Of a stretch of DNA of 51,397 nucleotides, positions 9,819-14,733 are shown in pieces; position 1 is the first letter of the stretch; each line of letters starts with the position of its first letter. The DNA lies in contig LDXR01000007.1 of NCBI GenBank assembly GCA_001443495.1, positions 1 through 51,397 of the forward strand, written 5' to 3'. This stretch comes from a candidate division NC10 bacterium CSP1-5. Its GTDB lineage: Bacteria > Methylomirabilota > Methylomirabilia > Methylomirabilales > CSP1-5. Under the pieces are notes generated by a model. The model did not search any database and was not told where the DNA came from. It saw nothing but the letters and a program-made list of their open reading frames with translations. The position numbers and the translations under genes were made by a program.

Positions 9819-11969
9819 CTACACGGCAGCTTCCCTTGATGTGCCCGAGGACCATCTATCAGGGATCACCCGATACCGCGTCGCCTCGGCGTCGGAGAGC
9901 TGCTTAGCCTTGACGGCCCGCTCGAGTTGCCGGTAGTAGATGCGCGCCGTGGCCGCGTCTACCATCTCGCGCTGGCCGGTGATGGGGTCGGCATACGCGA
10001 CTACGCCCAGGTTCCGCTCCTGGTCGGCGGTCGCATACAGTTCCAGGATCGCGAGCGCCCGCTCCACCGAGTTGATCCATCGAGCCTTGAATGCTTCAAG
10101 CGCAGGTTCCGTGGGCTCTGCGGGTCTTTCGCCGGCGCTCGGAGGGTTCATGATGGCGTTGACGCGGGCCGCTTGGTCCGGCGTGACGACCTTCCCGTGG
10201 AACCCCAGATTGGCGGCGAAGAGAGCCTCCTCTTCGAACTCGGCCCGGTTGCTGAACCCATCCACGGCGTTGATATCTGCAGCCGCCGCGGCGGCCACGA
10301 GCGCCGACCGGTAGTAGTAATACCCTTTCGCGGTCGGATCGGTAAGGTCTTCCTTCGGTTGGGGCGCCGCAAGGTCGAGGAAGAGCCACGTCATGCGGCG
10401 GCTGGCGGTGGCAATGGCATAGGCCTCGTGCTCTACGGTCTCGGGCTGAGTGATCCACGCCCCCAGGGCGAGGGTGCCGATAGGGAGGCCGACCTCCCGC
10501 TCCAACGTCGTGAGGAGTCCAGCTGCCTGCCGGACAGTGCGAGGCTGCTGTACGGAGGGAAGGATCACGGCGTGAACCTGGTCTTTAAGTAAATGCAACA
10601 GGCCCTGGAGATTCCGAATCACGTCCGGGCCGTCGAGGGTCACCTGGAGCGCTATCGTCTGGGAGGGGTGCCTCGCGTCGCGGCAGAGTTGCGCGAGCTT
10701 CCATCGGGCCTCGGGCCGTCCAGGCCCCCGGATGCTTTCTGCATCCACGACGACCATATCGGCCGGCGAGGCCAGCGCCGCCCGGAGGCCGTTCAGATCC
10801 TGTCCGGCCACCGTCACCACCGACCGGCAGAGGGTCACGGGCCGGGGGACGAAGACGATCGGGGGGAGAATGGGTTGCTCGGCCTGCACCAGGCGCTCGA
10901 GTCGCGCGAGATCGAAATCGGGAATCTCGGGGTAGCGGGCGCGCTTCCGGACGACGGGGGGAAACGCCGCATCGTGCCGCGCAATCCCCTCGATGTGTGC
11001 GGGGTGCGCGCTTGTCTTGCGGTGGATCCCGAGCGCGATGGCCCGCACGGTATCCTTCTCGGTGTCATCCGCGTTCAGTGTCACCGTAATCCCCGTTGCT
11101 GCCGCTTTGCCCGTGGCCCGGGCTGCCTCGACTAGCTTCAGCAGCGGGTAGCGCAAATAGGTGTACTGCTCTTGCTGGACCACGCTACGCCCCCCGGTGG
11201 CCGCTGTGTAGTCCAGAACCCCCAGGTTGACCTCCTCGACCTCCGGGGCCACCGCCAGGATCTCTTCAGCCCTCAAGACCGCCCCGGGCAGCTCGGTATG
11301 AACAAATATCTTGTGGCTCCCGAGGACCCAGCCTCGCTCCTGCTGGAGCGCCCGGAGGATCTGGACCGCTACCCGGACATCCTCCGGGCCCTCCACCTTG
11401 GGGAGGTAGATCCCCGCAATGAGGTCCCCGATCTCGCGGATCACCTGATAATAATCGCCGGCCGCCCACTTGGTCCGGAGACTGTTAGGCCGGACCAGGA
11501 TCATCTGTTGCTCGGTGAAGCGGTTCTCCGGTTTGATCATGAAGCGGTCCCCTGTCCGGAGAAAGTGCTCCTCGAGATGGTGCGCCTTGCCCGCCGGGAG
11601 GGCGTTCGCCTTGAGAAATTCGAGTTCTGCCTGGGTTAGACCGCGGCCCCTCAAGGCCCGCACCAAGAGGGTTAGGATGCTGCGGTCGATGTGCTTGCGG
11701 GTCGCGGCCACCGCATCTTCGAGGTCGAGGACGAGGATGTGGGCGGCCGAGCGGGCCGCCTTGACCATGAAGTACCAGTTGGCTCCTGGAAGGATGTGCT
11801 CGATGGATCGAGGGGTGTATTCCCAGGCGAGCTGCTCTATCGCTCTATCGCGGGTCGCACCTGGATCGACCCGCTTCAGGGCATGCCATCGGTCTTCGAC
11901 CTCGGCCTCAGCCTGGTCCTTGTGGCCTCCAAATGCCGCTACTACGTCGTCCCAGGTTCGCTCGTCCAC
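9819..11969 (-). CDS. CitE-like double-domain C-C lyase with C-terminal module
   Basis: A 716-residue protein with two HpcH/HpaI-CitE domains in tandem. Domain 1 (about residues 40-345) keeps the family marks LDLEDAV, LVRPN, LPKVEGPED, HTELPGAV and a KTSAHPAHIE ending. Domain 2 (about 370-625) is clearly related (VVVDAES, GYYYYRSALV, LGFHGKVVTPDQ) but has ILPSVQQP where KVE is expected, so it is probably not catalytic. The last 70 residues (WINSVERAL to ATRYRV) recur almost unchanged near the N terminus of the upstream MaoC-like gene. CitE-like enzymes cleave or form (beta-methyl)malyl-CoA or citramalyl-CoA. With a MaoC hydratase next door, a beta-methylmalyl-CoA/mesaconyl-CoA type reaction pair is plausible but inferred. 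GTG start with GGAGG eight bases upstream. Confidence 0.72.
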   Translation of the reverse strand: MDERTWDDVVAAFGGHKDQAEAEVEDRWHALKRVDPGATRDRAIEQLAWEYTPRSIEHILPGANWYFMVKAARSAAHILVLDLEDAVAATRKHIDRSILTLLVRALRGRGLTQAELEFLKANALPAGKAHHLEEHFLRTGDRFMIKPENRFTEQQMILVRPNSLRTKWAAGDYYQVIREIGDLIAGIYLPKVEGPEDVRVAVQILRALQQERGWVLGSHKIFVHTELPGAVLRAEEILAVAPEVEEVNLGVLDYTAATGGRSVVQQEQYTYLRYPLLKLVEAARATGKAAATGITVTLNADDTEKDTVRAIALGIHRKTSAHPAHIEGIARHDAAFPPVVRKRARYPEIPDFDLARLERLVQAEQPILPPIVFVPRPVTLCRSVVTVAGQDLNGLRAALASPADMVVVDAESIRGPGRPEARWKLAQLCRDARHPSQTIALQVTLDGPDVIRNLQGLLHLLKDQVHAVILPSVQQPRTVRQAAGLLTTLEREVGLPIGTLALGAWITQPETVEHEAYAIATASRRMTWLFLDLAAPQPKEDLTDPTAKGYYYYRSALVAAAAAADINAVDGFSNRAEFEEEALFAANLGFHGKVVTPDQAARVNAIMNPPSAGERPAEPTEPALEAFKARWINSVERALAILELYATADQERNLGVVAYADPITGQREMVDAATARIYYRQLERAVKAKQLSDAEATRYRVIPDRWSSGTSREAAV

Positions 11970-12108
11970 GGCCCCGTCCTCCAGACGCTCGACATTGCCA
12001 AGACGGTTGGTCTTCGGGGGTTTCTATGCGGGCCTTGGATTCAAAACTCTCTTCTTGGTGTCGCCCTGGATAACCTTTGTTGTAGGAAATAGGCGTATAT
12101 TTATATAA

Positions 12109-12123
12109 GCAAGTTCTGTGCCG
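12109..12123 (-). promoter_or_regulatory. Sigma-54 promoter of CitE-like gene
   Basis: Minus-strand CGGCACAGAACTTGC matches YGGCAC-N5-TTGC. Transcription would start near 12097, leaving a leader of about 128 bases. An overlapping sigma-70-like pair (TTGATC, 17 bases, TATAAA) is also present in the same AT-rich stretch, so either polymerase form could act. Confidence 0.55.
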
Positions 12124-12169
12124 ATCAAGCGCTTTTATTTGAGGGATTGAAGCGAGCTTTTGCGGGCGG

Positions 12170-13312
12170 TTAGGAGGGGAGCCCTGACAGGTCCATGAGG
12201 TTGACCACCTGGCCGTGAAGAATACGAGCCCCCCACTGGTTCGTCACCGCGATATCGATCGGGACGATCCGGGCCCCTTTTTCCTCTTGTAAACGGCGGA
12301 TCTCTTCTGGCGGCGGGGCCGTGGCGGCGATGCTGAGCTGATCGCCCGGTTCGATCGGCCCGCCGAAAGCAAGGACCCGGGCCGAGAGGAGGAGGTGGCC
12401 GGGTGAACTTTCGGCCGAGGCCATCGCCATGGTCTCGAGCGCGAGGAGGGGGCTTAGTTGGTGCGGGTAGAGCGGGCCGAAGAGGGCCAGGGTGGCGCGC
12501 ACCAGCTCGGGGGTGATCGTCCTGGTGAAGGTCTGGTGGCGGGGAGTGGCCGGATCGGTGAAGTCATGGACGATGGGGGACACTGCGGGGGTAACATCCT
12601 GGGCCCAGTGTCTCAGCCAGGCGAGTTCTGCGGGGGGAGTGGTACAGATCTCGCCCGCCTTCTCCTGCTTCAGGGTCGCAGTCCCCTCGCAGACGACCTT
12701 GCCCTCGTGGTTGACCGCGCTCACGTGCAGCACTGCCTGGCCCCCCTCCCCGACCTCCTGCACCTCGGCCGATGGCGTGAGACTGTCCCCGAAGTACACC
12801 GGCGCCCGGAAGCGGGCCACGAGTGCCTCGATAGCATAGGCCGGCCGGAGGTGCCCCAGGCTCGCCAGAACGTGACAGACGGTGAAGAGACCATGGGCCA
12901 CCAGCCCGTGGAACCGTGACTGTTCCGCATACGCTCGGTCCAGGTGATAGCGGTTTCGATCCCCCGAGGCCTTGGCGAAGGCCTGCACCATCCATGGGGT
13001 CACAGAGACCGCATCCCCCTGAAGCCGCTCTCCGGCAAAGAACCCCTCGCCGACCTGCTCTCCCCCGCCAGGGCTCAGCGCAGCCAAGAGGCGCGCGCGG
13101 GCCCCCACGTACCTTTTCGCATCGGCCTCCGAGAGCTGCTTGGCCTTGAGCGCCCGCTCCAGTTGTCGGTAGTAGACCCGGATCTTGTTCGCATCCACCA
13201 GCTCGTGCCGGCCGGTAACGGGGTCGGCGTAAGCGACCGCCCCCAGATTCCGCTCCTGATCGGCGGCCGCATAGAGCTCCAGGACCTCGAGGGCGCGCTC
13301 CATGCTGTTCAT
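12170..13312 (-). CDS. MaoC-like hydratase with N-terminal shared module
   Basis: A 380-residue protein. Residues 1-70 are the module shared with the end of the CitE-like protein (MNSMERALEVLELY, then YYRQLERALKAKQLS). Next comes a hotdog domain with the MaoC catalytic pattern GDRNRYHLD...AHG, which supplies the Asp and His of (R)-specific enoyl-CoA or mesaconyl-CoA hydratases. A second, degenerate hotdog half (about residues 240-375) lacks that motif. This double-hotdog layout is usual for mesaconyl-CoA hydratase and related eukaryote-like MaoC enzymes. The ATG at 13312 is preferred for its AGGGG site six bases upstream; a TTG at 13378 would add 22 residues, some of which resemble the matching region of the other gene. 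Same direction as the CitE-like gene, 200 bp upstream. Confidence 0.72.
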   Translation of the reverse strand: MNSMERALEVLELYAAADQERNLGAVAYADPVTGRHELVDANKIRVYYRQLERALKAKQLSEADAKRYVGARARLLAALSPGGGEQVGEGFFAGERLQGDAVSVTPWMVQAFAKASGDRNRYHLDRAYAEQSRFHGLVAHGLFTVCHVLASLGHLRPAYAIEALVARFRAPVYFGDSLTPSAEVQEVGEGGQAVLHVSAVNHEGKVVCEGTATLKQEKAGEICTTPPAELAWLRHWAQDVTPAVSPIVHDFTDPATPRHQTFTRTITPELVRATLALFGPLYPHQLSPLLALETMAMASAESSPGHLLLSARVLAFGGPIEPGDQLSIAATAPPPEEIRRLQEEKGARIVPIDIAVTNQWGARILHGQVVNLMDLSGLPS

Positions 13313-13401
13313 CCATTGCCCCTGAGATGCATCCACTGCCGGTCCCTTCGCACTCCGACGCGAATTCCCTTCTATCAAGGCGGGATGTGGGGCAAACCGG
13401 G

Positions 13402-13536: not shown

Positions 13537-14733
13537 TCACCCGCGCGGACGTCCGATCTGAAACTTTTGTCGCGCGGCGATGGCATCGAGGCCGGCGCGC
13601 GCGCGGGCAGCGGTTTCGGACGAGGGGTCGAGATCGAGCGCGTCGAGGAAGTGGTGATGTGCCTGGGTCACGAGGCCGAGGGAATTCAATTGCACCGAGC
13701 CTGCCCCCACGTGCGCTTCGGCAGCGCCCGGTCCCTCCGGATAGTCGCGCAGGTGGCGTCGGTAGGCGGTGAGCGCGGCGCGCGGGTGGCCGTTCTGCTG
13801 CAGCCAGTCGGCCAGCGCGAGCGAATCCTCCGGCTGGAGGACGCGCCGCGTCTGATCGGGGGCGAGGGTAAAATACACCTGTGCCGCCGTGGCGAAGTCG
13901 CCACGGGCAATCGCTCGGGCAAGGGATTGTGCGGGCGTCTCCCCGCTCTCGGCGGCAGCGGACACCGGCCGGTACTCGGGCGGGCGCCCGGTGACCTCTC
14001 GTCGGTTCCTCAGCCATGCGACGAGGAGTCCCGCCAGAAAGCCGCCGATGTGGGCGCCATACGCTACCCCGCGCCCCGTGCCGCGCGTGATGAGAAAAGG
14101 GAGCAGGTTGTCAGCCAGCAGGTAGAGCCCGAGCACGATTCGGGCCGGTACCATGAACACATTCATGAAGAAGGGGAAGAACACGAACAAGAGCCGAACC
14201 GTATTGCGCGGAAACCAGACGAAATAGAAGCCGAGGACGCCTGAAATGGCGCCGGAGGCCCCGATCAGCGGCAGCGGCGACGTGGAGGCGAAGAGGGTGT
14301 GAAACAGCGTGGCCGCCACTCCGGTCGCCAGATACCAGAAGAGAAAGGGCAGGCGCCCCAGGCGCGTTTCGACGTTGTCGCCGTAGATCCACAGAAAGAG
14401 CATGTTGCCGAAGAGGTGCAGGAAGCCGGCGTGCAAGAACATCGCGGAGAAAAGGGTGACCACGACCGGTGCCGCCGGTCGAAACCCGTATTGGAAGACA
14501 AAGAGATCGTACGCGGATATGTGGGAGAGAATCTCCTCCACCGGGACCCCGGCCGGCAGGATTCCCGTCACGAGGCGCACATACTCCCAGAGCGCCGGGT
14601 CGTTCGGGTCGGGTGCCTGCACGCTGAGTGGCAGCGTGACGAGGAGATACACGGCACAGTTGGCGAGGATGAGGGCATACGTGATGAACGGTATCCCCCG
14701 CGGGTTGGGCGCATCACCGAGTGGAAGGATCAT
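13537..14733 (-). CDS. Rhomboid-family intramembrane serine protease with C-terminal repeat domain
   Basis: A 398-residue protein. About six or seven membrane helices occupy residues 15-245 and carry the rhomboid marks HLFGNMLFLW, the catalytic serine in GASGAISG and the catalytic histidine in GAHIGGF. These enzymes cleave membrane helices inside the bilayer. The C-terminal third is soluble and helical (DFATAAQVYF, LADWLQQNGHPRAAL), consistent with TPR-like repeats for partner binding. The ATG at 14733 has GGAG nine bases upstream. It ends about 225 bp from the MaoC-like gene start in the same direction, but no functional link is evident. Confidence 0.85.
   Translation of the reverse strand: MILPLGDAPNPRGIPFITYALILANCAVYLLVTLPLSVQAPDPNDPALWEYVRLVTGILPAGVPVEEILSHISAYDLFVFQYGFRPAAPVVVTLFSAMFLHAGFLHLFGNMLFLWIYGDNVETRLGRLPFLFWYLATGVAATLFHTLFASTSPLPLIGASGAISGVLGFYFVWFPRNTVRLLFVFFPFFMNVFMVPARIVLGLYLLADNLLPFLITRGTGRGVAYGAHIGGFLAGLLVAWLRNRREVTGRPPEYRPVSAAAESGETPAQSLARAIARGDFATAAQVYFTLAPDQTRRVLQPEDSLALADWLQQNGHPRAALTAYRRHLRDYPEGPGAAEAHVGAGSVQLNSLGLVTQAHHHFLDALDLDPSSETAARARAGLDAIAARQKFQIGRPRG

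Follow-up and report, generated by a model that had tools for sequence, protein, structure and literature searches.

An active-site lid of a CitE-like lyase shared with the neighbouring MaoC-type hydratase in an NC10 bacterium, and a fused lyase-hydratase paralogue

The lyase and hydratase genes and their shared block

The window, the whole 51,397-nucleotide stretch of DNA analysed here (contig LDXR01000007.1 of the candidate division NC10 bacterium CSP1-5), carries two adjacent genes which, like all their features given below, lie on the minus strand. The first gene in the direction of transcription encodes a MaoC-type hydratase preceded by a module of the lyase (MH), and the second encodes a CitE-like lyase with two tandem barrels and a C-terminal lid (LM; 9819..11969, an ORF of 716 aa). 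The longest ORF of MH (402 aa) covers 12170-13378, but the GTG at 13336, with AAGGGA upstream, is the likely start, which gives the gene a likely extent of 12170..13336. Directly upstream of MH lies a gene for a rhomboid-family membrane protein whose C-terminal part is TPR-like (13537-14733, minus strand). By eye, TTGACC or TTGATC together with TACATAAT or TATATAA was found upstream of LM in three species (positions 11970-12169 in the window) and upstream of the fused gene described below (upstream of L009:7381). The occurrence of such promoter-like sequences ahead of LM in all three species suggests that LM may have its own promoter.

The Pfam model HpcH_HpaI scored 108.5 bits in total in three stretches of LM (cut-off 25), which assigns the protein to the CitE-like superfamily. 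Barrel 1 (about residues 50-350; 10920..11822) was delimited by alignment with 15 ordinary CitE proteins and barrel 2 (about residues 367-612; 10134..10871) by alignment and by its fold in Foldseek; the shared module directly adjoins barrel 2. In MH, the Pfam MaoC_dehydratas (hotdog) model scored 54.4 bits against a cut-off of 27. The double-hotdog hydratase part (12191..13063; Pfam, Foldseek and sequence) includes the Asp/His catalytic motif DxNxxH in the form SGDRNRYH (residues 138-145), which is kept in all fused copies and in both MH proteins. MH is therefore a MaoC-type hydratase.

When LM was compared with MH by BLASTP, a single significant match was obtained, between LM residues 622-699 and MH residues 13-90 (69% identity over 78 residues, ungapped, E 2.7e-32). 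The DNA of the two modules is 79% identical across 200 bp (E 5e-48). The original prediction, that the C terminus of the lyase and the N terminus of the hydratase carry a duplicated block recognizable in both protein and DNA, is thus confirmed. The two tandem HpcH/HpaI barrels, the hydratase-first gene order and the third, fused copy of the module described below were not part of it. No Pfam or NCBIfam model above its own cut-off covers the module. When the module alone was searched, HTH_IclR, DUF6707, Erythro-docking and a TPR protein were hit below threshold in Pfam/NCBIfam, and these were rejected as chance matches.

The shared module is the active-site lid of the lyase

The C-terminal lid of CitE-like and malyl-CoA lyases is a known catalytic element. 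Such lyases characteristically assemble as trimers or dimers of trimers in which the lid is exchanged with the neighbouring subunit; the models described below are of single chains. Several results show that the module is this lid, as found in CitE-like lyases of the malyl-CoA/citramalyl-CoA type. The NCBIfam citE model TIGR01588 matches LM 381-609 and ends at profile position 235 of 288, and the Pfam HpcH_HpaI model also ends ahead of the LM lid; that the citE match breaks off where the lid should begin counts in favour of this assignment. The C terminus of ordinary CitE proteins in related genomes is a segment such as ARRVVEGFEAARAAGRGVFTLDGRMVDEPFVEVERRLLARA, and profiles of their lids are colinear with the module over 54-56 columns. 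A profile of seven such lids matched the module with a score of 30.7 (E 1.9e-5; at most 15.7 in 40 column shuffles) and a larger lid set matched the module profile with a score of 28.1 (at most 15.8 in 60 shuffles). The similarity is remote, with 28-29% identity in the profile alignments and an hhalign probability of 65-78%, and, unlike ordinary lids, the module carries an inserted stretch in its hairpin and follows a longer linker.

The lid of Rhodobacter malyl-CoA lyase (residues 264-318) consists of two helices joined by a hairpin; it closes off the neighbouring subunit's active site, to which it contributes Asp299 (PMC3832036). The Asp of the module motif ELVDAATAR aligns with the lid Asp of ordinary CitE, and this in turn with the LVD of the Rhodobacter enzyme in structure 4l9y. 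The 4l9y Asp stands at chain position 320, which would be Asp299 after subtraction of a 21-residue tag (chain of 339 residues, published protein of 318). The AF2 model of LM barrel 2 plus module, built on an alignment with 30 relatives, had a pLDDT of 82 and a pTM of 0.84 and showed the module as helix-hairpin-helix. Malyl-CoA lyases were the top matches of this model in the PDB (Foldseek). Chain A of 4l9y, with 314 residues modelled, was aligned over 335 columns, and chains B and D, with 264-265 residues and the lid unmodelled, over only 258, which agrees with the three lidless chains described for this structure (PMC3832036). The lid assignment relies on the barrel 2 plus module model, since AF2 predicted the barrels poorly in the complete fused protein (pLDDT 67, pTM 0.38). 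By profile match, Asp column and fold, the LM lid extends over residues 627-699 (9873..10091), with Asp671 (codon 9957-9959) as the catalytic-type Asp. The MH lid, located by sequence comparison, lies at the N terminus together with an extra linker helix (13076..13333); its Asp is Asp62 (codon 13193-13195), followed by ANKI and not AATA.

The barrel residues known from CitE-like enzymes are the Glu and Asp of the DLED motif, Arg76 and the Mg ligands Glu141 and Asp168 in Rhodobacter numbering (PMC3832036). As judged from the alignment with the 15 ordinary CitE proteins, barrel 1 of LM keeps all of them (E84, D85, R160, E226 and D253) and has no lid, and the same holds for barrel 1 in 11 of 11 sequences. 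In barrel 2 of LM the catalytic Arg is replaced by Gln and the Mg-ligand Glu by Thr, and DLED has decayed. All 12 barrel 2 sequences have lost the Arg (to Gln or Glu) and the Mg-ligand Glu (to Thr, Ser or Arg), have a decayed DLED and bear the lid Asp. Nearly every comparison also showed slower evolution in barrel 1 than in barrel 2. The active-site residues are distributed over two places, barrel 1 and the lid that follows barrel 2. With an active barrel that has no lid and a dead barrel that has one, both are needed for one active site, and a complete site would form only if barrel 1 combined with the barrel 2 lid of the same or a neighbouring chain. In the lyase thus described, the active barrel and the lid lie on different halves of the chain, and the second half is a dead barrel.

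The lyase resembles the malyl-CoA/beta-methylmalyl-CoA lyases (4L9Y, 5UGR and 4L7Z) in the Glu-Asp pair, Arg and Mg-binding Glu and Asp of barrel 1, in the lid, where a beta-hairpin joins two helices and a catalytic-type Asp is present, and in a fold match over the full length including the lid. In contrast to them, LM and the fused protein have two barrels and one lid per chain, barrel 1 carries one part of the active residues and the lid attached to the dead barrel 2 the other, and the lyase is, or formerly was, fused to a hydratase. Malate synthases (3OYX, 3CV2 and 5OAS) likewise have a homologous barrel and a C-terminal hairpin with a catalytic Asp (PMC3832036), but they carry other elaborations and the lid of isoforms A and G closes their own barrel.

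A fused paralogue and the lid carried by the hydratase

Besides the two copies in the window, the window's genome has a third copy of the module on a different contig (C5), inside a single ORF of 1013 aa (L009:7366-10407). This ORF is arranged as lyase barrel 1, barrel 2, module and MaoC hydratase, and its one module copy is at the lid position. LM and MH are each 75% identical to the fused paralogue, LM to its residues 1-704 and MH to residues 625-1010. At the DNA level, window positions 11968-9873 match L009:7382-9477 and positions 13315-12192 match L009:9271-10394. These matches overlap on the fused gene (L009:9271-9477), so that exactly 207 bp of it, which are the module, occur in both genes, at 9873..10079 in LM and 13109..13315 in MH, close to the originally proposed positions of about 9871-10085 and 13105-13321. 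MH begins exactly at the lid helix, the break point, and past the break point LM has a short new C-terminal tail (RVIPDRWSSGTSREAAV; 9822..9872) in common with LM of G011. The fused lyase-hydratase gene is the ancestor of LM and MH. Fusion of the hydratase and lyase of consecutive CoA steps has thus been followed by fission in nature; a literature search found no account of the lyase-hydratase fusion. The fused gene is followed by convergently oriented genes that encode a xylose-isomerase-like protein and an IclR regulator.

The split pair was found in G000, G010 and G011, three species of the window's genus, always as hydratase and then lyase. The MH lid differs between G000 and G011 by 6.0 nonsynonymous changes per 155 sites and 12.0 synonymous changes per 49 sites (Fisher p 7e-5). 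The lid is therefore under purifying selection and is being maintained. The A-T-A following the lid Asp is invariant in the nine fused and three LM lids; N-K-I takes its place in both MH lids. The lid dN/dS was 0.43 between fused genes and MH and 0.13 between fused genes and LM, and the constraint on the lid was apparently relaxed or altered on the way from the fused gene to MH. After the split, LM has retained the catalytic lid. The MH lid reads as one that would have lost its catalytic role and kept a structural one, its fold being preserved by selection and its tip changed. Most likely it serves assembly or stability and not catalysis, although its conservation could instead mean that catalysis is still performed. 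To the reading that joins these points, namely a CitE-like lyase lid, a fused ancestor, a split within one genus and a non-catalytic lid in MH, we assign a probability of about 0.85.

What the hydratase gains from its lid can be explained in several ways. The lid may be a passive relic of the fusion that persists only because the hydratase part folds poorly in its absence. The start of MH exactly at the break point and the faster change of its lid after the split agree with this. The MH lid is, however, constrained at least as much as the hydratase part (dN/dS of 0.135 and 0.245, respectively, between G000 and G011), and we give this explanation slightly less than an even chance. A docking role, in which the MH lid would enter the cleft of LM barrel 1 or the site of the LM lid and tie the two enzymes together so that the CoA intermediate can be handed over, is physically conceivable, since known lyase lids swap onto the neighbouring subunit. 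The swapping in trans in malyl-CoA lyases (PMC3832036), the purifying selection on the MH lid, the covalent joining of both activities in the ancestor and the continued adjacency of the two genes in three species all speak for docking. On the other hand, LM already has its own lid, and the change from AATA to ANKI beside the Asp in both MH lids argues against occupancy of the same active site, so that docking seems doubtful. That the MH lid became a dedicated putative adaptor at the lid-swap site of LM, which would hold both enzymes of the CoA pathway together, is somewhat less probable again. With their split pair, the three species are well suited for asking whether a catalytic lid that is swapped can turn into a docking element.

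Distribution, origin of the split and predicted function

An HMM search of 95 genomes of the phylum Methylomirabilota detected the module in 10. Nine of these, the window's genome included, have the fused gene (about 1010-1120 aa), which is also present in the distant outgroup genomes G002, G004 and G028. The outgroup homologues are about 31% identical in their lyase and hydratase parts and 50-55% in the module; those of G002 and G004 (L024 and L025) have about 50-60 additional residues ahead of the lid. Among the split pairs, the hydratase gene of G010 is cut by a contig end and the lyase gene of G011 is spread across two contig ends; no fused copy was found in the G011 genome, which is 85% complete. 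Weak module-HMM hits (E 0.003-0.07) were short stretches in unrelated frames and were rejected, as were MaoC hits on haloarchaeal plasmids that apparently reached into the module and covered only the hydratase part after realignment. A scan of the whole collection with LM returned close relatives only, all of them Methylomirabilota/NC10.

According to the trees, LM and MH fall inside the genus after the branching-off of G028, a placement supported to this depth only. Constraining the three LM genes together gave an AU p of 0.28, by which a single origin is neither established nor rejected. One event is favoured by the shared end point, since homology to the fused gene stops at the same RY residues in all three LM genes. 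A copy of the fused gene was split within one genus. By the simplest route, the fused gene would have been duplicated in tandem, after which the first copy would have lost its outer lyase part and the second its outer hydratase part; a lid would then remain in both genes, and MH would stand ahead of LM. The observed order, with the module in both genes, is as expected from this route. A search for remnants of the lost outer parts gave only short matches at chance level, a point against this route. The origin of LM and MH is ordinary, a fission of a fused enzyme; the unusual features are the split active site and the orphan lid of the hydratase.

The opposite course, in which the separate pair is ancestral and a crossover inside the shared module joined LM to MH, would also produce a fused gene, but it is very improbable because G028, G002 and G004 all have the fused form and the split is confined to three species of one genus. 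The original prediction of an undescribed docking or self-association domain, unrelated to either enzyme fold, is practically untenable: the module had no Pfam or NCBIfam model and was restricted to LM, MH and the fused proteins among the 95 genomes, as such a domain might be, but in LM it belongs to the enzyme fold as the known lid, identified by profile, residue, fold and position, and its remaining occurrences in the phylum are all within the fused enzyme, as a single copy at the lid position. What appeared to be a new domain is a known catalytic lid left unannotated by general libraries. Its attachment to CoA enzymes, for which a profile search had been proposed, holds in all ten of the 95 genomes that have the module.

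In Foldseek, the fused model matched mesaconyl-CoA hydratase MeaC first, and also malyl-CoA lyase, citramalyl-CoA lyase and itaconyl-CoA hydratase, in accordance with the earlier proposal of consecutive CoA-thioester steps. As the fused model is weak in the barrels, these matches support enzyme classes and not a substrate. The likeliest reading is a hydratase-lyase for mesaconyl- or itaconyl-type CoA esters: the fused enzyme would hydrate a C4-C5 unsaturated CoA ester and then cleave the product. MeaC (8HGN) and the Chloroflexus MaoC protein (4E3E), the top Foldseek hits of the fused paralogue, share the double-hotdog MaoC fold and the GDxNxxH Asp/His motif; unlike them, MH has an N-terminal lyase lid, and identity to them is low (16-17%). 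Two further Foldseek hits, itaconyl-CoA hydratase (8KHG) and (S)-citramalyl-CoA lyase (8KHL) of the itaconate pathway, are likewise a MaoC-type and a CitE-type enzyme of consecutive steps, but they were solved as separate single-domain enzymes.

No NCBIfam equivalog for the MH substrate scored above its cut-off. The fused gene and LM were the only CitE-type genes found in the genome. The gene neighbours, encoding a HAD hydrolase, a transglutaminase-like/TPR protein and an IclR regulator at the fused gene and an MFS transporter and the rhomboid protein in the window, did not fix the substrate. The same genome has three genes for large subunits of the methylmalonyl-CoA-mutase type (L119:6262-8049, L120:6711-8411 and L121:6409-8319) and, next to an IclR-type regulator, a tandem pair of genes for class III CoA-transferases (L118:6440-10170). 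The best NCBIfam hits of these transferases include succinyl-CoA:mesaconate CoA-transferase, far under the cut-off. The mutase-type and tandem CoA-transferase genes fit several CoA pathways.
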